A stretch of DNA of 64,000 nt from Rheinheimera pacifica (GTDB taxonomy: Bacteria > Pseudomonadota > Gammaproteobacteria > Enterobacterales > Alteromonadaceae), in assembly GCF_900108485.1 (NCBI RefSeq), contig NZ_FNXF01000012.1, forward strand, positions 1 through 64,000. Direction: 5' to 3'. The notes below the pieces were generated by a model that saw only the letters and a program-made list of their open reading frames with translations, had not been told where the DNA came from and did no database searches. Of the stretch, positions 2,558 through 27,326 are shown piece by piece; within the stretch, counting starts at the first letter, position 1, and each line of letters opens with the position of its first letter. The position numbers and the translations under genes are program-made.

Positions 2558-3334
2558 ATGTCAGAGCTGATGTCTGAGCAGCACACGCTGTTTATCGCCG
2601 ATCTGCACTTAGCGGCAGATCGGAGCGATATTACCGCCGCCTTTTTGCGCTTTTTGCGCGAGCAAGCCATCCACGCCGAAGCCTTGTATATTCTCGGCGA
2701 TTTATTTGAAGTCTGGATTGGTGATGACAACCCCGAGCCACTACTGGCAGAGGTAGCCAACGCACTTAAAACCGTTAGCGATAGCGGCGTAGCGCTGTAT
2801 TTTATTCACGGCAACCGCGACTTTTTCCTGCGCGATGCTTATGCTAAGCGCTGTGGCATGGCGATATTGCCTCCGTCCAAAGTGATTGATTTATACGGCA
2901 AGCCAACGCTGATTATGCATGGCGACAGCCTGTGTACGCTGGATATTGCCTACCAGAAATTCCGTAAATGGTGGAACCAGCCCTGGTGGCAGTGGCTGAT
3001 GCTGAATATGCCGCTATGGTATCGCCAGCGTCTGGCCCGTAAAGCCCGCGCCAGAAGCGCCAAATATAAGCAGCAGTATATGGCACAGGCGCAACCACAA
3101 ATTATGGATGTGACACCGGATGAAGTACCCAGAGTGATGGCAGAAGCCGGCGTATTAAAGCTGATCCACGGCCATACTCACAGGCCTGCAGTGCACCAAC
3201 TGGAGGTTAACGGCAACGCTGCCGAGCGTTATGTACTGGGTGACTGGTACAGCCAAAGCAGTTATTTAAAAGTTAGCGTCAGTCAGTGGCAGCTGTATTT
3301 TAATGCGCTGGCAGATGACAGCCCGGCGGCTTAA
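2558..3334 (+). CDS. lpxH: UDP-2,3-diacylglucosamine diphosphatase (lipid A synthesis)
   Basis: Hydrolyses UDP-2,3-diacylglucosamine to lipid X and UMP at the inner membrane, the fourth step of lipid A synthesis. The metallophosphoesterase signatures are in order: DLH (Asp15, His17), GDLFEVWIGDD from residue 47, GNRD at 85-88, HGDS, and GHTHRP near the C-terminus. The ATG at 2570 would also give a normal start (MSEQHTLFIADLH), and neither start has a clear ribosome binding site, which fits coupling to ppiB. The 3' end overlaps the convergent lipid A deacylase gene by four bases. Confidence 0.96.
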   Translation: MSELMSEQHTLFIADLHLAADRSDITAAFLRFLREQAIHAEALYILGDLFEVWIGDDNPEPLLAEVANALKTVSDSGVALYFIHGNRDFFLRDAYAKRCGMAILPPSKVIDLYGKPTLIMHGDSLCTLDIAYQKFRKWWNQPWWQWLMLNMPLWYRQRLARKARARSAKYKQQYMAQAQPQIMDVTPDEVPRVMAEAGVLKLIHGHTHRPAVHQLEVNGNAAERYVLGDWYSQSSYLKVSVSQWQLYFNALADDSPAA

Positions 3335-3879
3335 AACCGCCAGGAATAAGCAATGTTGAGAAAATCCATACCGGGGTTACGGCTGGATAAACCCGCATTA
3401 GAGTAATGCATATAGCGCACTGCCAGCATTTTGCTGTTTTGCTGGTCGAGCCCGATCAGCAGGCCCAGCCGGTCTTCAAACTGAAAGTGCGAGCCTAAAT
3501 CTTTACCGGCAAATTCACGCTTTGTCAGCATACTAACACCGATACCAAACTCCCAGAACACCGGCTTGCCGTACCAGTTGGCAAATTGCTTTTTCAGCAC
3601 CGGTGACAAGGCCAGCGCCACGTTGGTTTGATACTGCGATGGCTGGCCGTACTGCCAGAAGTTAGTGCTGGCTTCCAGATACATATTGGCATCGCCCAGC
3701 AGCGGCAAGGTAGTAAAGTGAAATTCCAGCGGCCGGTAACCTAACCGCACACCATTTACCCGGCCTTCGCCTTTTAAATATTCCACTGAAAGCTGTGAAA
3801 TCTGCTCTGTGCGTATATCAGCCTGTGCTTGCCAAATTATTCCAAATGACAACACTAATGCCACTAGCCACCGTTGCAT
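3331..3879 (-). CDS. pagL: PagL-like lipid A 3-O-deacylase, outer membrane
   Basis: Probably removes the 3-O-linked acyl chain from lipid A in the outer membrane, altering endotoxin packing. Residues 1-20 form a signal peptide ending AQA. The mature protein is beta-rich, ends in an aromatic residue (SWRF) as outer-membrane barrels do, and is 182 residues long, right for PagL. The PagL active-site motif HYSNAG gives the His158-Ser160 pair; Asp172 sits where PagL has its acidic residue (usually Glu, from memory). It lies tail-to-tail with lpxH, which makes the same lipid. The gene symbol is by family only. Confidence 0.8.
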   Translation of the reverse strand: MQRWLVALVLSFGIIWQAQADIRTEQISQLSVEYLKGEGRVNGVRLGYRPLEFHFTTLPLLGDANMYLEASTNFWQYGQPSQYQTNVALALSPVLKKQFANWYGKPVFWEFGIGVSMLTKREFAGKDLGSHFQFEDRLGLLIGLDQQNSKMLAVRYMHYSNAGLSSRNPGMDFLNIAYSWRF

Positions 3880-4039: not shown

Positions 4040-4948
4040 TTAATACGGCCGGTACGGCTGAAACACCGCCATAACCCAGTTGATAAAGGTGCTTAAGCGG
4101 CCACTGAGATGGCGGCCGGGTGGGTAAATAAGATACAGCGGAAAGGCTGCGCGCTGCCAGTCTGGCAGTACCAACTGCAACTTACCATTATCAAGAAAAG
4201 GCTGCGCCATAAATAACGGCAGTTGGCTTACGCCCAGGCCACTTAAGGTAGCGGTTAACTGTGCGGTGCTATCGTTTACCGACAACGGGCTGCCTTGCTG
4301 CTGAATTTCCATTGATTGTTGCCGGTTGCTAAAACGCAGTGGCACTACACGGTTGGTTTTACGCGAGCGATAATAAATAATACGGTGTTTGCTGCTTAAT
4401 TCGTCCGGCGTTTGCGGGGTGCCATACTGCTGCAGATAAGATGGTGCGGCACAGGTAACAAAGGTCAGCTCGGCAATACGTTTGGCAATCAGCGATGTAT
4501 CGTTTAGCTCACCACCGCGAATTACGCAATCTATATTGTCGGTCAGCAAATCAATATTGGTATCACTAACACCTAACTCCAGCTGAATTTCCGGATATTG
4601 CTGCATAAAAGACGGTAACGCCGGCAACAGTATAAAATTAGCAATCGCCGACGCCATATCAACCTTTAGCCGGCCCCGCGGTGTGCTCTGTTCATTGCTG
4701 ATATTGCTTTCAATATCTTCAAGCTCATGCAGTAACTTGGTAGTGCGTTCGTAATAGGCCGCGCCTTCCATCGTTACCGTAACCCGGCGCGTGGTGCGGT
4801 GCAGTAATTTTAGCCGCAAATGCGCTTCCAGCTCTTGCACAAGCTTGGTTACGGTGGATTTTGGCATATCGAGTAAATCTGCGGCGCGGCTAAAGGTGCC
4901 GGTTTCAACCACACGACAAAACACTTTAATGGCTAACAGATGATCCAT
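4040..4948 (-). CDS. LysR-family transcriptional regulator
   Basis: A 302-residue regulator with the N-terminal winged helix-turn-helix (residues 1-60, with FSRAADLLDMPKSTVTKLVQ) and a periplasmic-binding-protein-like effector domain from about residue 90. It resembles the CrgA/PA-type LysR subgroup, which often controls oxidoreductase genes. It follows the Gfo/Idh gene by 82 bases on the same strand, so it may be the last gene of the sugar-acid operon or have its own promoter in that gap. Its ligand cannot be told from the sequence. Confidence 0.9.
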   Translation of the reverse strand: MDHLLAIKVFCRVVETGTFSRAADLLDMPKSTVTKLVQELEAHLRLKLLHRTTRRVTVTMEGAAYYERTTKLLHELEDIESNISNEQSTPRGRLKVDMASAIANFILLPALPSFMQQYPEIQLELGVSDTNIDLLTDNIDCVIRGGELNDTSLIAKRIAELTFVTCAAPSYLQQYGTPQTPDELSSKHRIIYYRSRKTNRVVPLRFSNRQQSMEIQQQGSPLSVNDSTAQLTATLSGLGVSQLPLFMAQPFLDNGKLQLVLPDWQRAAFPLYLIYPPGRHLSGRLSTFINWVMAVFQPYRPY

Positions 4949-5030: not shown

Positions 5031-6053
5031 CTAACTACGGCACTGGCCGCGGCTTAGCAAACCGGCATGCTGATAAATCTGGTCCAGCAGGCGCATATTA
5101 CTAATGGCATCGGTACCGCCGGTTAAGGCGGTGGCACGACCTTGCAGGCAGTCTTGTACATGCTGCAGTTGATAATAATAGGTGCTATGGCCAGGCACAC
5201 TGTATTGCTGCTCGGCTCCGGCAGTAACCACTTTAATACTGTTGCCCTGTTGCGGCGTAATCAGGCCGCTCACTTCAATACTGCCGAGGCTACCTTCCAA
5301 CACCAGGCTGGTATCGGGTGTGCGGCTTAAATGCTCTGCCATGCTGGTGCCGATATCGGCAATAGCGCCATTAGCAAATTGCAGCTGTGCCTGGCTGGTG
5401 ATATCAATTTGTTCACCGCCGGTTGTCGCATTGGCGGTAATACAGTTAGCGCTTAATACCACAGGCTCCTGCCCTGGCTCAGAGCCCATAACAGTGCGCA
5501 CCCAATGCAGTGGATAACAGCCTAAATCCATCATGGCACCGCCGCCCAATGCCGCTTCATGGCGCAGCGAGCCGGCAAAATACGGGATCCGCACCGAAAA
5601 ATTCGCCCGCAAATGGCTGATAGTGCCGATAGTACCGGCCTGCACCAGGCGCATCACCTCAACAAACAACGGATGAAAGCGGTAATGAAAGGCCTCCAGC
5701 AATAGCTTGCCGCAGGTTTGCGCTGCCTGCACCATGGCTTTAGCTTCGGCTTCATCCATAGCAAACGGTTTTTCACACAGTACGTGCTTACCATGCTCAA
5801 GCGCCTTTATGGTCCAGTGCGCATGTTCAGACGGTGGCAGCGCATTGTAAATCAGGTCGATATCGTCCCGCTCAAGTAAGGCCTGATAGCTGTCGGCGAC
5901 ATATAAGATGCCATGCGCACCGGCATACTGGCGGGCCCGTTCTGTCGAAGAAGCGGCTACCGCCTGCAACACAAAACCATCCAGTTGCTTAAGCGGCTGA
6001 AATATTGCTTTGTCGCTGATACGGGCAGCGCCTAATAAACCAATGCGGATCAT
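5031..6053 (-). CDS. Gfo/Idh/MocA-family NAD(P)-dependent oxidoreductase
   Basis: Likely a cytoplasmic sugar or polyol dehydrogenase. The N-terminal Rossmann fold starts IGLLGAARIS (residues 4-13). The catalytic Lys is in EKP (residues 94-96). The C-terminal alpha/beta domain has GGGAMMDLGCYPLHW (170-184), the signature seen in xylose dehydrogenases and dihydrodiol dehydrogenases. There is no signal peptide. AAGGA precedes the ATG. It lies 21 bases after the GH94 gene on the same strand, so it is co-transcribed. A role on glucose, gluconate or a related acid is inferred from context only. Confidence 0.88.
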   Translation of the reverse strand: MIRIGLLGAARISDKAIFQPLKQLDGFVLQAVAASSTERARQYAGAHGILYVADSYQALLERDDIDLIYNALPPSEHAHWTIKALEHGKHVLCEKPFAMDEAEAKAMVQAAQTCGKLLLEAFHYRFHPLFVEVMRLVQAGTIGTISHLRANFSVRIPYFAGSLRHEAALGGGAMMDLGCYPLHWVRTVMGSEPGQEPVVLSANCITANATTGGEQIDITSQAQLQFANGAIADIGTSMAEHLSRTPDTSLVLEGSLGSIEVSGLITPQQGNSIKVVTAGAEQQYSVPGHSTYYYQLQHVQDCLQGRATALTGGTDAISNMRLLDQIYQHAGLLSRGQCRS

Positions 6054-6074
6054 AGCGATTCCTTATGCGGTTAT

Positions 6075-8462
6075 TTAACTGGCTGAGGCAACAGGCAGCA
6101 GCAGCTCGACCTGATAATGCCGGCCGGCAACAATGTCAGTAATAAGCGGTTCGGCCAATAAGCGGCCATCGACACTTAGCTGTGCCTTGCTGATGCCGCT
6201 TTGCCGGCGCATTAGGATAACAAACTCTGCACCGCGAAATTGCCTTGTAAGTTTCACCTGTGGCCAGGCAGTTGGCAGCTGCGGTTGCAGTAATAACCCT
6301 TCCGGGCAACCTTTTATGCCAAATAACCCTTCGATTAACGAGCGATATACCCAGTGCACGGTGCCGGTATTAAATAACTGGCTGGAGCGCCCGGCGGTGC
6401 GCGGAAATTGCCGGTAAGCACCACGATAGTAATTCGGAATAAACACCGGTAACTGGCCGCGCTGCAGGCAGTCTTGCTCTGTGCTGCCGGGCAGCATCTG
6501 GCGCAGGACGTCAAAGGCTTTATCCGGTTGGTTAATCTGATAAAGCGCATATAAATAAAACGCCGCGGCATGGTTATACACCGAGCCATTTTCAGCCGAA
6601 CCGGGGTGCTTTTGTGTTACGCGGCCCACATCGTCACGCATAGCGGTATAGGCCGGCGCCAGCATTTGCACGCCGTAAGGCGTGGCTAATTGCGCGTCGA
6701 TTTCAGCCAGCATCAGTTGCAGCTGCTCGTTATTGGCAGCACCACTTAACATGGCCCAGCTTTGCGGGTTCAGGTAAATACGACCCTCGGCATCTTTATT
6801 GACGCCAAATACCACATTATCATCGGTAATGCCGCGGCCATACCATTTACCATCCCACAAATACCGGTTAACCGCCTGATTAAAACTGTGGGCATCATTG
6901 CGGTATTGCTCCGCAAGGCTCTGCTTACCAAGCTGCTGGCAAATATCGGCCCAGCAGTTAAGCGCATAAGCTGCCGCCAGCGATAACCAACCCGACACAC
7001 CACGGCCTTTGTAGCCGACCATATTCATTGGATCGCACCAGTCGCCCTGTTCAATAAAACTCAGGCCACGCGCATCGCGTTTATGCAGCAGCCAGCTCAT
7101 GGCGCGGCAAATATGCTCAAACACAGTGGCGGGCTCTGTGCTATCGCCAAAGGCGATAGTTTGCTGTAATAAGGCGGTGTCGTTGGTTTCGGCCAGATAG
7201 GCCGCCAAACACACCGGTAACCAGACACATTGGTCGGTATGCGGCACCTGGTTAATGTATTTCAGCTCGGCGTCGGGGTGCAGCAAAATACCGTCCGGCA
7301 TTTCGCCGCTACTGTGCTGCTGCGCCAGCGCCGTTAACAGCGCGGTGCGAAATGCCTCCGGCCGCACATAACTCATGCCCATATTATCCTGCAGATAATT
7401 ACGGGTTTGCGGATCTGTGGTGAGCCGGTTGACATCGCCGTGGTAATACACCTGGCGCGGTAGCCAATGGTTAACAAAGTTATCCAGCGCGGTATCCGGT
7501 GTTTCGATCTGTAAACAACCGTGGCCCTGCGCAATATAATCGCTGTACTGCTGCTGCGCCTTTACAAAACCATCCGGCGTTAAAAAATAGCGCTGCCGTG
7601 CTGCGGCAATCTCGCTTTCATCCAGTGCCGGGCCAAATACAAAACGGTAAACCTGCTGCGCGCCGCCTGCCAGTTGCAGCCGGTATTGCATCACACAAGC
7701 CGGGGTTTCATATAAGGCATCGCCGCCATTGAGCTCGGTTTGCTGCAAAGCATCCGGCGCATGCAGGCCGCCCTCGCCTTCAAACGCTTGCTGTGCACAT
7801 TGCCAGCTGGTGGGCACCTGCTCTGCCAGTAAAAAGGTTTTATCCTTTAACAGTTTGTTTTTAAAGTAATCGGGGTATTTTTGATACGGCGTAACCGATG
7901 AGCAAACAATAGCATTTAGCGCCGGTTCAAACTTTGCCGACTGGTTCATCCACGACATATAACCGACCGGGAAATACGGGTAGATGCTAAGCTCGCGTGG
8001 CTGCGCGCTGAGGTTAGTCACGGTAAGCTGCCACAGTTCATGCGGCTGGTCCGGGCTTAAGCAGAGCTGCCATTGCAGTTGCAAGCCCTGTTGCTGCAGC
8101 TGCCAGCGGATATCACTTTTACCGGCAGAGAACACAAAGCTGTCGGCTTTGCTGCGCACCGGCTCGTAAGGTACCGAGAACACCTCAGCGCTTTTCTCAT
8201 CTTTAATATAGACAAAGCGGCCCGGATGATGCGCGTAATACGGCTGCTCCGGCTGCATAAAGGTTTTTGCTTCCAGATTCGGCGCATGGGCGTATTTGGC
8301 CGGCTCCGGTTGCATAAACTGCGCGGTGGCATAGCCACGGCAGTTAAGTTGCACCATTAACTGCTTGTTCCATAAAAACGCCGCTGCCAGCGGCATAGTG
8401 GTGGGGCTGAATAAATCATAACGCTGACCGTTGTCGCCAGGTTGCATGCCAGAGGCTGCCAT
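6075..8462 (-). CDS. GH94 glycoside phosphorylase, probably cellobionic acid phosphorylase
   Basis: Proposed reaction: cellobionate + phosphate gives glucose-1-phosphate + gluconate (EC 2.4.1.321), in the cytoplasm. The 795-residue protein has the GH94 layout: an N-terminal beta-sandwich (to about residue 290), then an (alpha/alpha)6 barrel. The family's general-acid motif appears as GDWCD near residues 473-477. There is no signal peptide, as expected for a phosphorylase. The in-frame TTG just before the ATG is disregarded; GGAG lies ten bases before the ATG. The strongest clue to substrate is the neighbouring gluconokinase, which would take one product. Cellobiose, laminaribiose or chitobiose phosphorylase cannot be excluded without residue-level alignment. 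Confidence 0.75.
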
Positions 8463-8484
8463 CAAAGTAATACTCCGGGTAAAA

Positions 8485-9879
8485 TTAACTTAATGCGCTG
8501 GCTTCTGCCTTGCGCTGGTGTAAATCAAACTGAATTTTTGCCAGTTGCCGGTTGTCCAGACTGTAGTAGCGCATAACAAAGGCTGCCAGCAGCGCAATAA
8601 CGCCGGGGATCACCGAGATCAGCAGCACTATGCCGGTTTGCGAGCCGGTGCTTTGCTGCTCGTTAGCCACATAACCAATAGCTGCCAGCAACCAGCCGAT
8701 TAACGCCGAAGCAATGGCGCCACCGAGTTTTTGCGAAAAAGTGGCGGCAGCAAAGGTCATAGCGGTGGCCCTGCGCCCGGTACGCCATTCATTGTAATCG
8801 GCCGTGTCGGCATACATCGAAAACGCCAATGGAGATTTTGGCCCCAGTACAAAACCAATTGCCAAGTTCAGTGCAAAAATAACGCCCACCGCATCCGCCG
8901 GCACAAAGTACAAACTGATCGAAAGCAGCCCTGCTAAAGACATCAGTAATACCATCAGGCGTTTTTTATCGATAAAGCGCGTCATCAGCGGTGTGGCGGC
9001 CGCGCCCAGTGCTAGTGCCAGCATGTAGGAGGATAAAAACTCACCGACTAAATCGGGCCGCTCGACATAATATTTAAAGTAGTACACGCCGCTGCCGGCG
9101 CGCATGGTAATGGTGACCATAATGATCAGCGCCAGCGCAAATAACACCAGCCAGGGTTTGTTGTTTTTTAAGTCGGCTAAATCCTGCCGCACCGCATTAG
9201 GTTGCAGGCTTAGCGGGGCGATACGCTCTTTGGTGGTAAGAAAGGTAATTAAAAACATTAAGGCTGCGGCAATACCAAATACCAGCATCGTTAGCTGCCA
9301 ACCCAGCACATCATCGCCCTGCCCCAGCAACGGCACTAACTTGGGCGTTAAATAGGTTACCAGGATGCCACCGCTAAAACCGCCGATAAAACGAAAGCTG
9401 ACCAGCGTAGTGCGCTGCTGGCTGTCGCTGGTAATCACACCGGATAATGCCGAGTAAGGAATATTAATAGCGGTATACACCAGCATTAACAGCGTATAGG
9501 TGCCGTAAGCCCACACCAGTTTGCCGGTTTCGCCTAAATCCGGCGTGCTGTAGGTCAGCACACCGGCACCAGCCAGCGGCAGCGCCAGCCATAATAAATA
9601 GGGCCGGAATTTACCAAAGCGGCTGCGGGTACGATCAGCAATGGCGCCCATTAGCGGATCGGTAAAGGCATCGACTATTTTGGTGACCAGCATCATGGTG
9701 CCGGCCGCAGCGGCGGAGATACCAAAAACGTCGGTGTAGTAAATCAGCAAAAAGGCTGAAATATTAGCCCAGTAGAAATTAAAGCCCATATCACCGAGGC
9801 CGTAACCGATTTTTTCGCGCAGCGGTACCGCTGTGGCTGTATTTTGCGTTGCTATGTTTTGTGAAGCCGGAACTGTCAT
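8485..9879 (-). CDS. GPH-family (MFS) sugar:cation symporter
   Basis: A 464-residue inner-membrane transporter of the glycoside-pentoside-hexuronide family. About twelve membrane segments are visible. Family features include the N-terminal [16 protein letters not shown] and [20 protein letters not shown], the usual MelB-like cation-site region. It lies 22 bases upstream of the GH94 gene and 67 bases after gluconokinase on the same strand. By context it carries a disaccharide acid such as cellobionate from periplasm to cytoplasm; the substrate itself is inference. Confidence 0.9.
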
Positions 9880-9946
9880 ACCCTGTTATCCCACTGTTAT
9901 GGCATCAGCTCTGCGGCTGAATATGATAGCGCAATCAGGTGTGGCT

Positions 9947-10459
9947 TTACGCTGCTAAAAACTGTGTTATCTGCTGCACCAGCTTCGCTGCCGGCAGCGT
10001 GATATCCAGTATGGTTATATCCGTTTCATTGTCACAACTTTGCATCGTCAATAACTGGCTTTGCAACATGGCCGGCGGCATAAAATGGTTTTGCCGCTGT
10101 GCCAGGCGCTCTGCCAGCAAAGCGGCATCCCCCTGCAGATAAAAGAAATGCGCGTTATCAGCGCTGCTGCGAATTTGCTGGCGATGGCGGGCAATTAAGC
10201 CAGAGTAACTTAACACACAAGGCTGCTTTGCCGCTTTACAGGCGCTAAGCTCGTTACACAGTGCCTGCACCCAGCTTTCGCGTAAATGATCAGCCAGCGG
10301 TATGCCACTGGCCATCATTTGTTTGGCCTCGGGGCTGTGATAATCGTCGCCTTCAATAAAGCGCCAGCCCAGCTGCTGTGCCAGTAACTGGCCAACGGTC
10401 GACTTACCGCTGCCGGCAACGCCCATAATCACAATAGTTTTGCTTACTGTAGCGCGCAT
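9947..10459 (-). CDS. gntK: Gluconokinase
   Basis: Phosphorylates D-gluconate with ATP to 6-phosphogluconate, which enters the Entner-Doudoroff or pentose phosphate route. At 170 residues it has the normal GntK length. The Walker A loop GVAGSGKS is at residues 13-20, followed by the family signature EGDDYHSPEAKQMMASGIPL. AGGAAG lies upstream of the ATG. It is the first gene of the leftward operon, divergent from a LacI-type repressor gene, with a matching operator in the shared promoter region. Its presence beside a GH94 enzyme is the main argument that the phosphorylase releases gluconate. Confidence 0.95.
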   Translation of the reverse strand: MRATVSKTIVIMGVAGSGKSTVGQLLAQQLGWRFIEGDDYHSPEAKQMMASGIPLADHLRESWVQALCNELSACKAAKQPCVLSYSGLIARHRQQIRSSADNAHFFYLQGDAALLAERLAQRQNHFMPPAMLQSQLLTMQSCDNETDITILDITLPAAKLVQQITQFLAA

Positions 10460-10517
10460 AATAAGCTGTTGCTTCCTGTTAGTGTTGCTTGTTGGCTAAG
10501 AGCTTAAACCAGCAACA

Positions 10518-10533
10518 ATGATTGCGCAACCAT
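10518..10533. promoter_or_regulatory. LacI/GntR-type operator between gntK and the repressor gene
   Basis: ATGATTGCGCAACCAT differs at one base from the perfect palindrome found before the TonB receptor gene. It has the central CG typical of LacI-family operators. It lies 59 bp upstream of gntK and 58 bp upstream of the repressor gene, so it could control both. Confidence 0.7.
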
Positions 10534-10590
10534 TTTGACTAACAACCCGCAATACAGTATTGTCTTGTAAAAGATCGCAGAGCTAAGCTT

Positions 10591-11592
10591 ATGAGCAGGA
10601 AGCCAAATTTAAAAGACGTTGCCAAAGTAGCCGGTGTAAGCGCCATCACGGTATCGCGGGTATTGACAGATCCAACCAAGGTGTCTGACAAATTACGCAA
10701 TAAGGTGGAAAAAGCCATTCATGATATCGGCTATATCCGCAACCATGCTGCCAGTGCGCTGGCCTCGAAAAAGTCCGGCGTGCTGGCAGTCATTATTCCG
10801 TCGTTATCCAATATCGTATTTAACGATGTACTACAGGGTATTTATCAGGCGGTTAAAGCGAAAAACCTGCAGGTGCTGCTTGGCGACTGCCATTACTCGC
10901 CGCTGATAGAAGAACAGCTGATTGCCACCCTGCTTAGCCAGTCGCCGGAAGGCTTTATTGTTACCGGTGCGGCGCAAACCGATTACGCCCGTAAACTGCT
11001 GCTGCAGGCCGATATTCCGGTAGTGCAGATTATGGAACTGACCAATCAACCGATAGATATGAATATTGGCTTTTCGCATTATCAGGCCAGTTACGATATG
11101 ACGAAACATTTGCTGCAACAAGGCTATCGCGCACCGGCCTTTGTCGGTGCCCGTATGGACCCGCGCACCCAGCAGCGGTTGGCGGGTTTTAAACAAGCCA
11201 TAGCCGATTGGCCACAGCCGTGCCGCAGTTTTATTCAAACCACAGTACAACCGTCTTCTATTAAGCTGGGCGGCCAGTTATTACAAGCGGTAATTGCCGA
11301 ATCAGACAACCAGTGCGATGCTGTATTTTGCTGTAATGATGATCTGGCACTGGGCGCCTTGTTTGAAAGCAAACGGATGAATTTAAGTGTACCTAAAGAT
11401 ATCGCCATTTGCGGCTTTAATGATTTGGAAGCATCGGCATTGGTAGAGCCGGCCATTACATCAGTGGCATCACCACGCGTTGAAATGGGCCGCCAGGCGG
11501 TAGAAATGCTGTTTAGTGCCGCCGGTAAAGGCCGCCATGCGGTAGCTCCGGTGGATGTCGGCTACAGTATTATGGTACGCAGCTCAACCTGA
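10591..11592 (+). CDS. LacI-family repressor, GntR (gluconate) type
   Basis: A 333-residue regulator with the N-terminal LacI helix-turn-helix and hinge (LKDVAKVAGVSAITVSRVL at residues 6-24, hinge near 50-60) and a sugar-binding domain. From memory it tracks E. coli GntR along its length, for example VGARMDPRTQQRLAGF and VFCCNDDLALGALFE, suggesting that gluconate or a gluconate-containing sugar is the inducer. It is divergent from gntK. Three copies of a matching 16-bp site occur only in this locus, so it is probably the local repressor of both transport and catabolism genes. Confidence 0.9.
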   Translation: MSRKPNLKDVAKVAGVSAITVSRVLTDPTKVSDKLRNKVEKAIHDIGYIRNHAASALASKKSGVLAVIIPSLSNIVFNDVLQGIYQAVKAKNLQVLLGDCHYSPLIEEQLIATLLSQSPEGFIVTGAAQTDYARKLLLQADIPVVQIMELTNQPIDMNIGFSHYQASYDMTKHLLQQGYRAPAFVGARMDPRTQQRLAGFKQAIADWPQPCRSFIQTTVQPSSIKLGGQLLQAVIAESDNQCDAVFCCNDDLALGALFESKRMNLSVPKDIAICGFNDLEASALVEPAITSVASPRVEMGRQAVEMLFSAAGKGRHAVAPVDVGYSIMVRSST

Positions 11593-11609
11593 GCTGCAGC
11601 ATAAATAAT

Positions 11610-11634
11610 AAAGCCGCTGTATAACAGCGGCTTT
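11610..11634. terminator. Bidirectional terminator between repressor and TonB-receptor genes
   Basis: AAAGCCGCTG and CAGCGGCTTT form a hairpin just after the repressor stop, followed by ATTTTA on the plus strand. The genes converge here, and A-rich sequence on the left gives a T run on the minus strand too. Confidence 0.8.
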
Positions 11635-11661
11635 ATTTTACGGCTTTATTACTACTGCCGG

Positions 11662-14133
11662 TTAGTCAAAGCTCACTTTTACCCGCACGCCAAAAGTACG
11701 CGGCGCCTGCCACATATAGTTCGGTACCGGGTTATTGTTCCAGCGGCCCTGATCACTTTTTATCGCTTTATCTGTCAGGTTATTAACAAAAGCTTCCAGG
11801 CTCCAGTTGCCGGCCGACGGTTGATAAACCAGGCTGGCATCCAGTTTGGTATAAGCATCCTGACGGTCAATATCTGCGGCATAAGGCAGGTTACGGAACC
11901 CTTCAGGCCTGTCGCCACGATTAGCCGGATCAAACCAGATCTCTGACGAGTAGCTGGCGCGCAGGCGCGGACGTACTGAAGCACCATTGCTTAACTCAAA
12001 GAAATGCTCATAGCTTAGCGACATACTAAACTCCGGTGCCTGCACCAGACGGTTACCTCTGAAATCCAGCAGATTAGGCAGGTTCGGGTTACCGGCTGAC
12101 GGGTTAAAGGCGATACCGTCGGCACCGTAGCTGGAGTCGGTCGTGAAAAACTCATCGTACTTCGCATCCAGATACGACAGTGTACCGTTTAGCTCACCAT
12201 TACGGCCCACCAGCCATTTGGCTTCTACTTCCAGGCCATTAATAGTGGCTTTACCGGCATTGGTTTTACGCAGTAAGTCAGCACCGGTTTCAGTAGTGAC
12301 ATTACTGGTTACCTGTAAGTCAGTGTATTCGGTGCTAAATAAGGCGGCAAATACCTGCAAAGTACTATCCAGGAATGAGCCTTTTAACCCCAGCTCAATG
12401 CTGGTATTTTCTTCCGGCGCCACATAAGCATTAGTGCCGGCCGCTTCGTTGTTATTTCTGCCGATAATGGCATCCAGATCAGCTTGCGTAAACGGGCCGG
12501 TGCCAGTGTACTGACCGCCATCCTGAATAGTGCCGGATTTAAAGCCGGTAGCATAAGAGCTGTACAACATAATTGTCGGGGAAAAATCCCATTCCAGCCG
12601 CGCCATACCGGTAGTTTTATCCCAGCTTGGGCTGGTATCGTTATAGGTATCTACCCAGCACTGACCCGGCTGCACCAGAAATTTGTTTGGTGCCAGCCCA
12701 TTTAGCAGGTTATCCGGGTCCAGCAGGCCAACGTAATCGCTGTTCAGCGGCAGATTTTCGGTGCGCTTAACGTCAGGGCACATAATATTGCGGCCGCCTC
12801 TGTCCCAGCGCTCGTCTTCGGTATAACGTAAGCCCAGGCTGATACGGAATACATCCGTCAGCTTGTAAGTGCTTTGCGCATAAATACTGTTCGATTTCAG
12901 GCCACGATCCGGCTGACGGTAGGTAGACCATAAATTCGGGTTAGGCGTGTTGCCACCTTCGTAATCTACATCCGGGTGCACTATATCAAAGTGGGTACTG
13001 TTGTTTTCTTTGAAGTAGAACAAGCCAACCATCCACTGCAGACGGGCACTGTCTTCATTTTTCAGCTGCAGCTCATGTTGGGTCGCTTCGTGAGTACACT
13101 CTACACAGCCGCCCCATTCGTATTTGTTTTCAGTCCAGCTTCTGTCCCACACTGATTCACGCGACGAATCGGTATAACCACCGATATAAGACACCGTTAT
13201 ACCGTTATCGAAGTTGTAATTTAACCGGGTACGCACGCTGTCGATAACAAAATCATTAAAGCCCGGCTCCTGAATATAAGCCGAGCGGTTGGAGCCACCA
13301 GTTACGGTAGGAATATGACCGGTGCCCTGATCGGTAAAGTTTTCATACGACAAAAACCAGTCAAAATTATCATTCGGCTGCCATAAAGCGCTGATACGGG
13401 CTGCCGCTAAATCGGTAGAGCCGTATTTTTTGCCCATGGCAGAACCTGGTGCCATATCAACCACGCCTTCCGATTTATCCATTGCCGCAGCCACCCGAAT
13501 AGCCAGCGTGTCTGTCAGCGGTAAATTAACCATAGCGCGGGTGGCGCGCCGGTCATAGTTACCCAACGTAAATTCAGCATTGGCTTCAAAGTAGTCCAGC
13601 TTAGGTTTGGCCGTGTGCAGGTTAACCACACCGCCGGTAGCATTACGGCCAAACAAGGTGCCCTGAGGCCCGCGCAAAATTTCGGCGCCCTCTAAGTCAA
13701 ACATCAGTGCTGAAGCGCCCTGTGAGCGGGCAGAATAAACGCCGTCAACGTGAAATGCTACAGCCGGGTCACCACTTTCGGTTTGATCCGACGAGCCGAT
13801 ACCACGCAGATATACCATAGGCGTATTTTGCGTGCCGTTTTGGGCAATATGTAAACTGGGCACAACACCCTGCAAATCATCCAGTTGCAGTACGTGGTTG
13901 TCATCCAGTGCATTTTGATCAAAAGCAGTAACCGCCAATGGCGTTTCGCGGATAGTGGTTACCCGTTTGGTGGCGCTTACCTGTATGACTTCTATCGCAC
14001 GTGCTTCGCTGCTGTCTGCTGCTGGCTCAGCACTTTGCGCATATACATTAGTTGCCCCGGCTGCGAGCAGCGCAGCTGAGATCAGAAGATAGCTTTGTTT
14101 TAGTTTGGTAACTGGTTTTTTGCTGATTGGCAT
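11662..14133 (-). CDS. TonB-dependent outer-membrane receptor of the sugar-acid locus
   Basis: An 823-residue active-uptake receptor. Residues 1-32 form a signal peptide (ending VYAQ). A TonB-box-like stretch IEVIQVSATK lies at 47-56. The plug domain contains LRGIGSSDQ and ILRGPQGTLFGRNATGGVVNL. The C-terminal 22-strand barrel ends in RVKVSFD. A strong GGGGGGAG site precedes the ATG. Two LacI-type operators lie upstream, matching the one at gntK, so it should be regulated with the phosphorylase operon. Uptake of cello-oligosaccharide acids is inferred from this shared control, not from the receptor sequence. Confidence 0.93.
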   Translation of the reverse strand: MPISKKPVTKLKQSYLLISAALLAAGATNVYAQSAEPAADSSEARAIEVIQVSATKRVTTIRETPLAVTAFDQNALDDNHVLQLDDLQGVVPSLHIAQNGTQNTPMVYLRGIGSSDQTESGDPAVAFHVDGVYSARSQGASALMFDLEGAEILRGPQGTLFGRNATGGVVNLHTAKPKLDYFEANAEFTLGNYDRRATRAMVNLPLTDTLAIRVAAAMDKSEGVVDMAPGSAMGKKYGSTDLAAARISALWQPNDNFDWFLSYENFTDQGTGHIPTVTGGSNRSAYIQEPGFNDFVIDSVRTRLNYNFDNGITVSYIGGYTDSSRESVWDRSWTENKYEWGGCVECTHEATQHELQLKNEDSARLQWMVGLFYFKENNSTHFDIVHPDVDYEGGNTPNPNLWSTYRQPDRGLKSNSIYAQSTYKLTDVFRISLGLRYTEDERWDRGGRNIMCPDVKRTENLPLNSDYVGLLDPDNLLNGLAPNKFLVQPGQCWVDTYNDTSPSWDKTTGMARLEWDFSPTIMLYSSYATGFKSGTIQDGGQYTGTGPFTQADLDAIIGRNNNEAAGTNAYVAPEENTSIELGLKGSFLDSTLQVFAALFSTEYTDLQVTSNVTTETGADLLRKTNAGKATINGLEVEAKWLVGRNGELNGTLSYLDAKYDEFFTTDSSYGADGIAFNPSAGNPNLPNLLDFRGNRLVQAPEFSMSLSYEHFFELSNGASVRPRLRASYSSEIWFDPANRGDRPEGFRNLPYAADIDRQDAYTKLDASLVYQPSAGNWSLEAFVNNLTDKAIKSDQGRWNNNPVPNYMWQAPRTFGVRVKVSFD

Positions 14134-14212: not shown

Positions 14213-14228
14213 ATGTTTGCGCTACCAT
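14213..14228. promoter_or_regulatory. LacI-type operator, promoter-proximal to the TonB receptor
   Basis: ATGTTTGCGCTACCAT matches the palindromic site at 14323 at 14 of 16 positions, including the TTGCGC core. It lies 80 bp before the receptor ATG. Confidence 0.6.
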
Positions 14229-14322: not shown

Positions 14323-14338
14323 ATGGTTGCGCAACCAT
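14323..14338. promoter_or_regulatory. Perfect palindromic LacI-type operator upstream of the TonB receptor
   Basis: ATGGTTGCGCAACCAT is a perfect 16-bp palindrome with central CG. It lies 190 bp before the receptor start. Related copies are at 14213 and at 10518, the latter at the gntK/repressor promoters. Confidence 0.75.
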
Positions 14339-24671: not shown

Positions 24672-27326
24672 TTACTCGGCTTGCTTGAGTTTCGCAGCTT
24701 CGGTTTTCACGTTTTGTGGGGCGTCAGAGCTAAGAATGTCATCCAGCAACATAGTGGCACTTTCTTTATCGTCAATTTCGATATAAGCCCGCACCAGGTC
24801 AAGTTTGGCAGCATAGCCGTTATCTTCTCTGTCAACATCGCGTTGTTCGTGTTCGCCAATAATGTCGGCAAACTCGTCCAGCCCTACATCAACATTTAAT
24901 TTATTAAACCGCTCCGGGTCCAGCTCCTGCTGTTCGGCACTGGCCAGCAACTTGTCAATTTCAACAAAATCGTCGTCGGCAAAATCAAAATCTTCTGCTA
25001 TTGGCGCGGCTGTGGTGTCAGTGCCATCTGTCAGGTTGAAACCGGCCTCTTCATCTGCAGTAGCGTCTGTCAGTTCAAGATTATCGGCCATCGCCTCAAG
25101 TTCAGTCATTAACGTATCAAACTGTGCCTCAGGCAGCGGATCCAGCTCTATTTCCACCGCTTCGTCAGTCAAAGCCTCGTTGATGTCAGACAACTCAAAA
25201 GCCGGATCAAACTCATCGAACAGATCATCATCAGCCAGTTCCAGCTCTGGGTATTGCTCAAGTATCTTGCTGGGGTTTTCTACCGATAATGCGGCTTCTG
25301 TTGGCCGGCTGACAGAACTGTCATCCAATGCCGTCAGATCAAGGTTCTGCAAGGTTTTATTTTCGGCCTTTAAGGCCTCAGCATCATCAATCAGCGCATC
25401 ATCCAGCTCACTCAGCCCGCTATCTATTGCTGTAGTATCAAACGGTGCAGTATCAAGTGACGTCGCATCCAGTGCTGTAGTGTCAAGCTCGTCAGCCAGT
25501 TCGCTGTCCGGCTCTGATGGCAATGGCTCAAGACCGATATCCTGCGGCGTAACGGTATTAGTATTAGCATCTTCAGCTGCCACATCGTCAAGCGTGTCTA
25601 CCTGATCCAGCAGTTCACTCAGTTCTGCATTTAGCAGTGCTTCATCATCATCTGTCAGTTCATACTCTGGTATCACTTCAAGCTGCGCAGCTTCACTTTC
25701 CGCCACCAGGCTTTCGGCAAATTCTTCCAGCTCTGAGCTGTCAAAGCTTTGCTCCGGTTCTGCCAGCAAAGCGTCATCCAGGGTAATATCCTGCTCAGCT
25801 TCAGCATTGCTGGTTTCAGTATCCGCTTCCGGTTCAGCTGATGCCGCAGCTGTGCGGGCCAACGCAGCCAGCATGTCCTGTTCTTGTCCGGTCAGTTCAG
25901 CCAGCTCATCGTCATCTTCATCCAGCGCAACTTCTTCAATCAGATCATCAATATCAAACTCATCAAAGGTTTCATCCTCTGGTGCCGCATCGCTGGTTAC
26001 GTCTGGCTGGATATCAGGCTCGCTTAATATATCGTCCTGACTGTCGTCGTTGTCGGCCAACTCTACAATGGTGTCATCGTCATCGGCTGCAGCAAACAGG
26101 GCAGATAAGTCGCTGTCAGACAAAATATTGTCGGCATCAAACGTCTCATCCGGCTTTGTTGGCTGCTCTGCTGGTTTGGTATCTGCCGTTGGCAACAAAC
26201 TGTCATCTTCAAAAGTCAGCGCATCGTCAAACTGCAGCAAATCGCTGTCGACACCGCTGTCTGCCGCTAAAATGGTGTCATCTACGAAGGCGTCTTCGAG
26301 TAATGCATCATCAATTTCGAACAGGCTTTCATCCAGATCATCATTTTCTTCCAGCGGCGGCAGTGGTGAATGATAGGTTGGGTCTGCCTGTGGCTCGGTA
26401 CGGGCAGCGTTAATCACTTCTTCTGTTTTCTGGCCACGCTTTTTCACCCACAGCAGTATGCTAAACAATACCAGCAATGCCGGTACACAAGCAGCAAGGA
26501 TCCAGCTTAGCGGGTTTTGCAGCACACTTTGCCAGGTAGAACTTTGCTCTGCAGCCTCTTTTGCTGCGGCTTCGTCATCAGCTCTGGCTTGTAGTAATGT
26601 CGCCTGCTGTTGCACTAAAAGCTCAATTTGCTGCTGAATCTGGCTGTCATCACTCAGCTCTGCTTTTAATAATTCCAGTTCTTGCTGTAACTTGGTTAAA
26701 CTGGTTTTTAGCTGCAAATTTTCCTGCACCATGGTTTCAACCAGCTGCATTGAATCAGCAAACTGGCTGCGTAAACCATCAAGTTGCTGCCGCTGTTGTT
26801 CGTCCAGCCGTTTTAACTCTGCCTGCCATTGCGGCGCCGCACTAACCGCAGCGCTGCTGGTGCTGGTACTGGCGCTAGTCACTGCCTTTGGCGCGGCAGC
26901 TTTTTGCCGCTGTGCCCAGATTTGGTCGTCCTGCTCGGCTTTTTGTCTGGCAATGGCAACATCCACCTGCTGAATTTCCTGCAGCGATGGCAATACCAGG
27001 ATAGCTCCGGGTTTTAAGTGATTAAGATTATTCTCAAGAAATGCATCTGGGTTTTTCAGGTAAAGCGCATACATCACCTGATACAGGCTGATGTTGCCGG
27101 CAGGTTTAACCCGTTCGGCTACGCGCCACAGCGTGTCGGCCGGGCTTAGCGGGCCAATCTGCTCAGCTGGTGCCGCGGTATCAGAATCACGCGGTCCACG
27201 GATTTGCGATGGAGTAACCGTATCTGAACCACGCGGCCCACGAATTTGGGTTGTATTTTCCTGGGCTTGCAAAGACGACGAAAAATTGACAAGCACAGTA
27301 ATCAGTAAAACAAATAACCAAGGCAT
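24672..27326 (-). CDS. fimV: FimV/HubP-family polar landmark protein
   Basis: A peptidoglycan-anchored pole organiser linked to type IV pili, flagella and chromosome origin placement in relatives. Order of parts over 884 residues: signal peptide (1-22), a tandem QIRGPRxSDT repeat (27-50), a LysM module (61-113), coiled coil (167-258), one membrane segment (273-295), a very long Asp/Glu-rich cytoplasmic region (about 300-800), and the conserved FimV C-terminal domain ending AAKLKQAE. The acidic part is low-complexity and produces long meaningless frames on the other strand. Neighbours asd and truA match fimV elsewhere. Confidence 0.92.
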   Translation of the reverse strand: MPWLFVLLITVLVNFSSSLQAQENTTQIRGPRGSDTVTPSQIRGPRDSDTAAPAEQIGPLSPADTLWRVAERVKPAGNISLYQVMYALYLKNPDAFLENNLNHLKPGAILVLPSLQEIQQVDVAIARQKAEQDDQIWAQRQKAAAPKAVTSASTSTSSAAVSAAPQWQAELKRLDEQQRQQLDGLRSQFADSMQLVETMVQENLQLKTSLTKLQQELELLKAELSDDSQIQQQIELLVQQQATLLQARADDEAAAKEAAEQSSTWQSVLQNPLSWILAACVPALLVLFSILLWVKKRGQKTEEVINAARTEPQADPTYHSPLPPLEENDDLDESLFEIDDALLEDAFVDDTILAADSGVDSDLLQFDDALTFEDDSLLPTADTKPAEQPTKPDETFDADNILSDSDLSALFAAADDDDTIVELADNDDSQDDILSEPDIQPDVTSDAAPEDETFDEFDIDDLIEEVALDEDDDELAELTGQEQDMLAALARTAAASAEPEADTETSNAEAEQDITLDDALLAEPEQSFDSSELEEFAESLVAESEAAQLEVIPEYELTDDDEALLNAELSELLDQVDTLDDVAAEDANTNTVTPQDIGLEPLPSEPDSELADELDTTALDATSLDTAPFDTTAIDSGLSELDDALIDDAEALKAENKTLQNLDLTALDDSSVSRPTEAALSVENPSKILEQYPELELADDDLFDEFDPAFELSDINEALTDEAVEIELDPLPEAQFDTLMTELEAMADNLELTDATADEEAGFNLTDGTDTTAAPIAEDFDFADDDFVEIDKLLASAEQQELDPERFNKLNVDVGLDEFADIIGEHEQRDVDREDNGYAAKLDLVRAYIEIDDKESATMLLDDILSSDAPQNVKTEAAKLKQAE

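Follow-up and report, generated by a model that had tools for sequence, protein, structure and literature searches.

We analysed a 64,000-nucleotide stretch of the genome of Rheinheimera pacifica (contig NZ_FNXF01000012.1, positions 1 to 64,000; hereafter the window), in which six neighbouring genes encode a GH94 phosphorylase, a GPH-type symporter, a gluconokinase, a LacI-family repressor, a Gfo/Idh/MocA-type oxidoreductase and a TonB-dependent outer-membrane receptor (TBDR). This cluster (5031-14133), whose features are listed in Table 1, very probably serves the uptake and degradation of cellobionic acid, a product of cellulose oxidation. Statements about the whole genome refer to the source assembly (G000; 4,457,865 bases in 46 contigs), and the comparison of GH94 proteins in relatives covers 80 fetched loci and, in addition, 21 loci of the order.

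Table 1 Genes and candidate regulatory features of the cluster (positions in the window)
Feature	Position	Strand	Remarks
Gfo/Idh/MocA sugar oxidoreductase	5031..6053	-	Last gene of presumed operon; profile and PDB matches
GH94 cellobionic acid phosphorylase (predicted)	6075..8465	-	TTG start as listed; match to 4zle
GPH-type cation symporter, inner membrane	8485..9879	-	TIGR00792 407.5 bits, above cut-off; MelB 149 bits
GntK/IdnK-type gluconokinase	9947..10459	-	First gene of presumed operon; TIGR01313 139.2 bits, cut-off 113.75
Operator-like site ATGATTGCGCAACCAT	10518..10533	.	Between gntK and lacI; kept in relatives
LacI-family repressor, gluconate GntR type	10591..11592	+	Profile matches
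Terminator-like hairpin	11607..11637	.	Between convergent lacI and TBDR genes; minus strand 11637-11607, shorter plus-strand form 11616-11631
TBDR	11662..14133	-	Plug and barrel; signal-peptide-like start by eye
Second operator-like site ATGTTTGCGCTACCAT, 2 mismatches	14213..14228	.	Upstream of TBDR gene; counterpart in 7/11 TBDR-bearing loci
Perfect palindromic operator-like site ATGGTTGCGCAACCAT	14323..14338	.	Upstream of TBDR gene

Profile matches confirmed the position and the family of every gene named in a previous sequence-only reading of this DNA, which had left out the oxidoreductase gene, the fourth in the minus-strand series. The gaps in this series (gluconokinase, symporter, phosphorylase, oxidoreductase) are 67, 19 and 21 bases, and from their size we presume that the four genes form one operon. 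The lacI gene is divergent from the gluconokinase gene (gntK), and the TBDR gene is convergent with lacI and has an upstream region of its own. Since the cluster is kept across Rheinheimera and is complete, though rearranged, in a member of another family, the association of its genes is more than chance. Promoter-like sites showed no excess (nine, against 11.0 in shuffles), and scans of the window for Rfam families and tRNAs gave no matches.

The catalytic and supersandwich domains of the phosphorylase match PF17167 (211.5 bits) and PF06165 above their cut-offs, and among PDB entries it scores 1201.7 bits against 4zle, followed by a chitobiose phosphorylase with 187.5 bits and by cellobiose phosphorylases with at most 149.3 bits. 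The 4ZLE entry is SdCBAP, the cellobionic acid phosphorylase Sde_0906 of Saccharophagus degradans (PMC8950772). The two proteins are 63% identical over 786 positions. In SdCBAP, Gln190, Arg609 and Lys613 are reported to contact the gluconate carboxylate and Asp472 to be catalytic (Nam 2015), and the residue types at these numbers agree with the 4zle chain sequence. Their counterparts in the protein studied here are Q195, R615, K619 and D478, and the same four residues recur in each of the 80 fetched relatives as well as in 21/21 loci of the order; in the Rheinheimera loci L001-L006, the GH94 genes are 94-95% identical to that of the window. Only positions 609 and 613 discriminate: the other GH94 protein of the genome likewise has Q and D at the positions of Gln190 and Asp472, while at 609/613 it has Y/Y and the Vibrio chitobiose phosphorylase has F/V. 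An alignment with cellobionic acid, cellobiose and chitobiose phosphorylases was the check that the sequence-only reading had proposed for its GH94 assignment, and in the sequence part of this check the protein comes closest to SdCBAP and keeps the key residues, so that a role in cellobionate phosphorolysis is strongly supported at the sequence level. The GH94 family also includes cellobiose and chitobiose phosphorylases (PMC5309861), and were the enzyme one of these, or yet another phosphorylase, the locus would be an ordinary disaccharide operon; we regard this as highly improbable given the distance in score between SdCBAP and all other entries, the retention of the Arg609 and Lys613 equivalents, unlike in the two proteins just mentioned, and the presence of a gluconokinase gene within the operon. 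The other GH94 domain of the genome (G000:C35:94232-96340, L081) lies within a 2,925-codon open frame whose product is similar to cyclic beta-1,2-glucan synthase, and proteins like it occur in eight other genomes of the genus.

The remaining steps of the route are represented as well. The kinase scores above the GntK/IdnK cut-off (TIGR01313), the symporter matches PF13347 and lies above the GPH cut-off (TIGR00792), and a full-length edd gene, for 6-phosphogluconate dehydratase, is present elsewhere in the genome (1022 bits, cut-off 708). We also inspected 20 further stretches from the order, which comprises 36 genomes with a GH94 match; 15 of them have a GPH gene and 16 a gluconokinase-like gene, 12 having the two and one having neither. 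These 20 exclude the stretch of genome G045, the kinase matches of L127 are not adjacent, and L118 apparently comes from the same genome as L021. Because a GPH or gluconokinase-like gene accompanies the phosphorylase in 19/20 of these stretches, the core of phosphorylase, symporter and kinase is widespread. In Neurospora crassa a transporter, a phosphorylase and a gluconokinase serve the same route (PMC4537572), and the cellobionate pathway is therefore known in kind.

The candidate regulatory sites would tie the receptor to this pathway. The LacI-family protein scores 393.6 bits against the GntR model NF052440, just below the cut-off of 400, and its gene has the gluconokinase gene as its divergent neighbour. 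A palindrome, ATGGTTGCGCAACCAT, was first spotted by eye upstream of both promoters, and with up to two mismatches it occurs three times in the entire genome, each time at the locus (at 10518 with one mismatch, at 14213 with two and at 14323 with none), once between lacI and gntK and twice upstream of the TBDR gene. By a uniform-base estimate, 1.2 such sites would be expected by chance genome-wide and 0.002 in the 9.1 kb of the locus, and shuffled versions of the window contained on average 0.57 sites with up to three mismatches, three being reached in 1/100 shuffles. All 11 TBDR-bearing loci of relatives (L001-L010 and L014) have a site between gntK and lacI and another that precedes the TBDR match by 182-208 bases; seven of them also have a counterpart of the second TBDR site, if up to three mismatches are allowed. 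In these upstream regions the operator is conserved while its flanks diverge: the longest invariant run in seven chosen TBDR upstream regions, when aligned, is 12 bases long and lies inside the operator, and in eight chosen gntK-lacI regions the best-conserved stretch consists of the operator and the overlapping GTCAAAATG, with a nearby TTAAGCT block that is invariant too. Taken together, the shared sites indicate that the repressor very probably controls the operon and the receptor jointly. We also searched for further members of the regulon, but no other place in the genome carries the operator at up to two mismatches, and eleven places with three mismatches were dropped because the genome holds 14 sites at up to three mismatches against 25 in total for a reversed control. 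By eye, one of the three-mismatch sites, on C33, lies by frames reading like pnp and nlpI, and another, on C46, by a photolyase-like frame.

The TBDR, which matches Plug and barrel domains, follows the phosphorylase across genomes. Among 31 genomes of the genus, the phosphorylase (at least 82% identity) was found in 11 and the TBDR (at least 88% identity, E 1e-100) in 10, all of them within those 11 and none among the 20 without phosphorylase, with at most 32 candidates scored per genome (hypergeometric 2.5e-7, ignoring ancestry). Five genomes that match GH94 only through cyclic-glucan-synthase-like proteins at 26-29% were counted as without. The exception, G004, is apparently the genome of locus L024, where the contig with the cluster ends inside the symporter gene. 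Among 394 genomes of the order, the phosphorylase (at least 50% identity, E 1e-200) is present in 36 and the TBDR (E 1e-90) in four, all within the 36 and none in the 358 without it (hypergeometric 6e-5); three of the four also belong to the genus set above. The fourth, G045, from another family, has all six genes in one place but differently arranged: its TBDR gene (69%) is divergent from gntK, and between the TBDR and gntK matches lie two operator-like sites with three mismatches. The sequence-only reading had assigned the TBDR to the phosphorylase locus, and its place in the same regulon is well supported by the shared sites and by this co-occurrence.

At the level of individual loci the picture is more varied. 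Among 19 Rheinheimera-type loci (L001-L016, L020, L021 and L024), the TBDR gene is in place in 11, absent from a readable flank in six and cut off in two; in the genome of L012, a 78% orthologue lies where a contig ends. The TBDR gene of L008 and L010 sits between an RND pump gene and lacI. In L013 an RND pump gene adjoins lacI; L015 has an equally long frame there, and L011 has other frames. Outside Rheinheimera, TBDR genes beside the phosphorylase were found in L045 (36%) and L107 (69%), in addition to a 26% partial match at the edge of the L016 stretch, in a search with the TBDRs of the window and of L045 as queries (E 1e-5), which may miss distant TBDR subfamilies. In L045 (4075-12346), from a metagenome-assembled genome of Rugamonas, the 36% TBDR gene stands between the gluconokinase and GPH genes, perhaps as a separate recruitment.

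Several of these results speak against a receptor dedicated to the pathway. The counts within the genus are affected by shared ancestry, and the search of the order scored two candidates per genome. Six phosphorylase loci (L011, L013, L015, L016, L020 and L021) have no adjoining TBDR gene, no relative of the TBDR was detected at E 1e-60 in the whole genomes of L013, L015, L016, L020, L021 and L024 (R. baltica), and that of L011 has only a 33% relative. No operator was found in L016 and L020 at up to three mismatches, and the TBDRs of solved structure that come nearest by sequence are receptors for siderophores and for pesticin. Because the TBDR is missing from some loci and genomes that have the phosphorylase, the receptor cannot be obligatory; it looks like an optional, co-regulated addition to the pathway.

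The same results would also fit a different cargo for the receptor, for instance cello-oligosaccharides of greater length, whether oxidised or plain, or a chelate of the iron(III)-gluconate kind, which would be induced together with the pathway while cellobionate itself entered through porins. The siderophore receptors among its nearest solved counterparts and the close relatives that have the phosphorylase and lack the TBDR fit this view, as does the size of cellobionate, which as a matter of general knowledge would suit porins. We nevertheless consider it unlikely, if still worth keeping in mind: the receptor shares the sites of a sugar-acid repressor, it was found only alongside the phosphorylase in the genomes searched, and the six genes include no hydrolase for longer chains.

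The oxidoreductase raises a second possibility, in which cellobionate would arise inside the cell. The protein carries an EKP motif, and its start does not, by eye, resemble a signal peptide; orthologues of 53-95% identity occupy the same place in L001-L015 and in L107, while none was found in the phosphorylase loci L016, L020, L021 and L024. Aldose-aldose oxidoreductase may act on cello-oligosaccharides, although a search of two papers for this activity found no mention of it. This enzyme, which converts aldoses to aldonolactones (PMC9795676), is the best full-length PDB match of the oxidoreductase (111.9 bits, residues 6-330), and ketoreductases match equally well over the N-terminal half. 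The TBDR and the symporter would then import cellobiose, the Gfo/Idh/MocA enzyme would oxidise it at C1 in the cytoplasm, and the resulting cellobiono-lactone would be the internal product on which the phosphorylase works. The position of the gene at the end of the presumed operon, its conservation in L001-L015 and L107, the full-length resemblance to an enzyme that makes aldonolactones and a genome without a clearly cellulose-type lytic polysaccharide monooxygenase (LPMO) are in keeping with such a scheme. However, the family is very diverse and half of the protein resembles ketoreductases just as closely, the gene is gone from the four loci named above and has a relative in only 1/20 of the further order stretches, and there is no lactonase among the cluster genes. 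Given the weak resemblance, we think it quite improbable that cellobiose is oxidised inside the cell. If true, a shunt from cellobiose to cellobionate, yielding glucose-1-phosphate and gluconate for the kinase, would explain why the phosphorylase and a dedicated receptor are kept without an evident cellulose LPMO.

We then considered where external cellobionate would come from. The sequence-only reading had noted that the window contains no LPMO gene and had called for a search of the rest of the genome for AA10 genes. As regards AA10 it was right about the window, and the genome has a single AA10 match, on another contig (G000:C32:154648-158226, L083). It combines LPMO_10, GbpA_2 and CBM5/12 domains and follows a GH18/ChiC frame, and its best PDB match is an entry named chitinase B (242 bits), followed by fusolin and CbpD, with entries named as cellulose-binding at 83 bits or less. 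The AA10 protein is therefore probably chitin-active and forms, with the GH18/ChiC frame, what is probably a chitin-degradation pair; no operator with up to two mismatches accompanies its gene. A search for cellulases covering the families GH9 and GH5 found no GH9 in the genome and a single GH5 match of 63 positions (a 180-base stretch) at 23.6 bits, against a cut-off of 23.5; the frame with this match adjoins, by eye, a sodium-solute-type transporter. The suggestion that the organism itself oxidises cellulose is consequently not supported, and with its only AA10 of GbpA type beside GH18/ChiC, GH9 absent and GH5 marginal, the organism probably lives as a scavenger. Each of the 11 genus genomes with the phosphorylase has an AA10 match, as do 3/20 of those without it (hypergeometric 4.3e-6); the match in G010 is split in two, and one of its parts contains a stop. 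We did not accept this as a link between an LPMO and the pathway, because the copy in the source genome looks chitin-type and is without an operator at the threshold given above, and because ancestry can explain the pattern.

Altogether, we propose, with a probability of roughly 0.75, that these genes form a GntR-type regulon with which the cell scavenges cellobionic acid (4-O-beta-glucosyl-gluconate) that other organisms release. Cellobionate, perhaps along with longer cello-aldonates, would cross the outer membrane through the TBDR, and the GPH symporter would move cellobionate across the inner membrane. The GH94 enzyme would split cellobionate with phosphate into glucose-1-phosphate and gluconate, which the gluconokinase would convert to 6-phosphogluconate for the Entner-Doudoroff route. 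Gluconate or 6-phosphogluconate probably frees the repressor from the shared operators, to which it would otherwise bind, so that the operon and the receptor are switched on together.

Some observations concern the surroundings of the cluster. After the operon, the window has a LysR gene (4040-4948) and a small gene (3331-3879) that is PagL-like by eye, and in L004, L005, L009 and L024 these two are unmatched between the operon and the counterpart of window 2558-3334, L024 also being without an oxidoreductase match. In L016 (5230-7842) a GH3 glycosidase gene with an Exop_C domain lies directly upstream of gntK, L020 has a frame of the same length from 5355, and neither locus has a lacI match. 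Elsewhere in the window there is a short tandem repeat array with 23/46-base units near the start (158-272) and an 884-residue open frame on the minus strand (24672-27326) for which Pfam gave no match at E 1e-8.

Little is known of how bacteria take up oxidised fragments of cellulose. The cellobionate importer of Escherichia coli was described as still to be found (PMC4403981), and TBDRs have been proposed for the import of cellodextrins in Cellvibrio (PMC12542752). Because the locus combines candidates for the receptor and the symporter with a short operator, specificity for cello-aldonates becomes directly testable. The locus also suggests that oxidation products made by others may sustain aquatic bacteria in which cellulases are not evident.

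Among known systems, SdCBAP and its Xanthomonas and Neurospora counterparts belong to the same GH94 subfamily and have the +1 subsite residues seen here; the phosphorylase of Rheinheimera stands in a six-gene set with a TBDR. The CBT-1, CAP and gluconokinase of Neurospora crassa follow the same logic of specific importer, phosphorylase and kinase, but there the importer is of the major facilitator type, there is no outer membrane, and a branch through an extracellular glucosidase is described (PMC4537572). The loci of xanthomonads known as carbohydrate utilisation systems containing TBDRs (CUT loci) also bring together a TBDR, an inner-membrane transporter, an enzyme and a LacI repressor (PMC10714752); here the substrate would be an aldonic acid, and the six genes include no secreted depolymerase. 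A parallel to the receptor is the ong cluster of Pseudoalteromonas prydzensis, where the TBDRs OngOT-1/2 serve aldonic oligosaccharides under a local repressor (PMC9537276). A TBDR for such compounds had seemed new to the sequence-only reading, a view that OngOT-1/2, published for oxidised chito-oligosaccharides, qualify, and for this reason the present receptor would be a cello-type variant; it is the new part of the locus, and no published cellobionate TBDR was among the literature matches listed, in which subscription journals are thinly covered. The ong cluster, likened here by description, is of chito type and proceeds by periplasmic hydrolysis and the GlcNAc1A route (PMC9537276), whereas the Rheinheimera locus would be of cello type and proceed by phosphorolysis.

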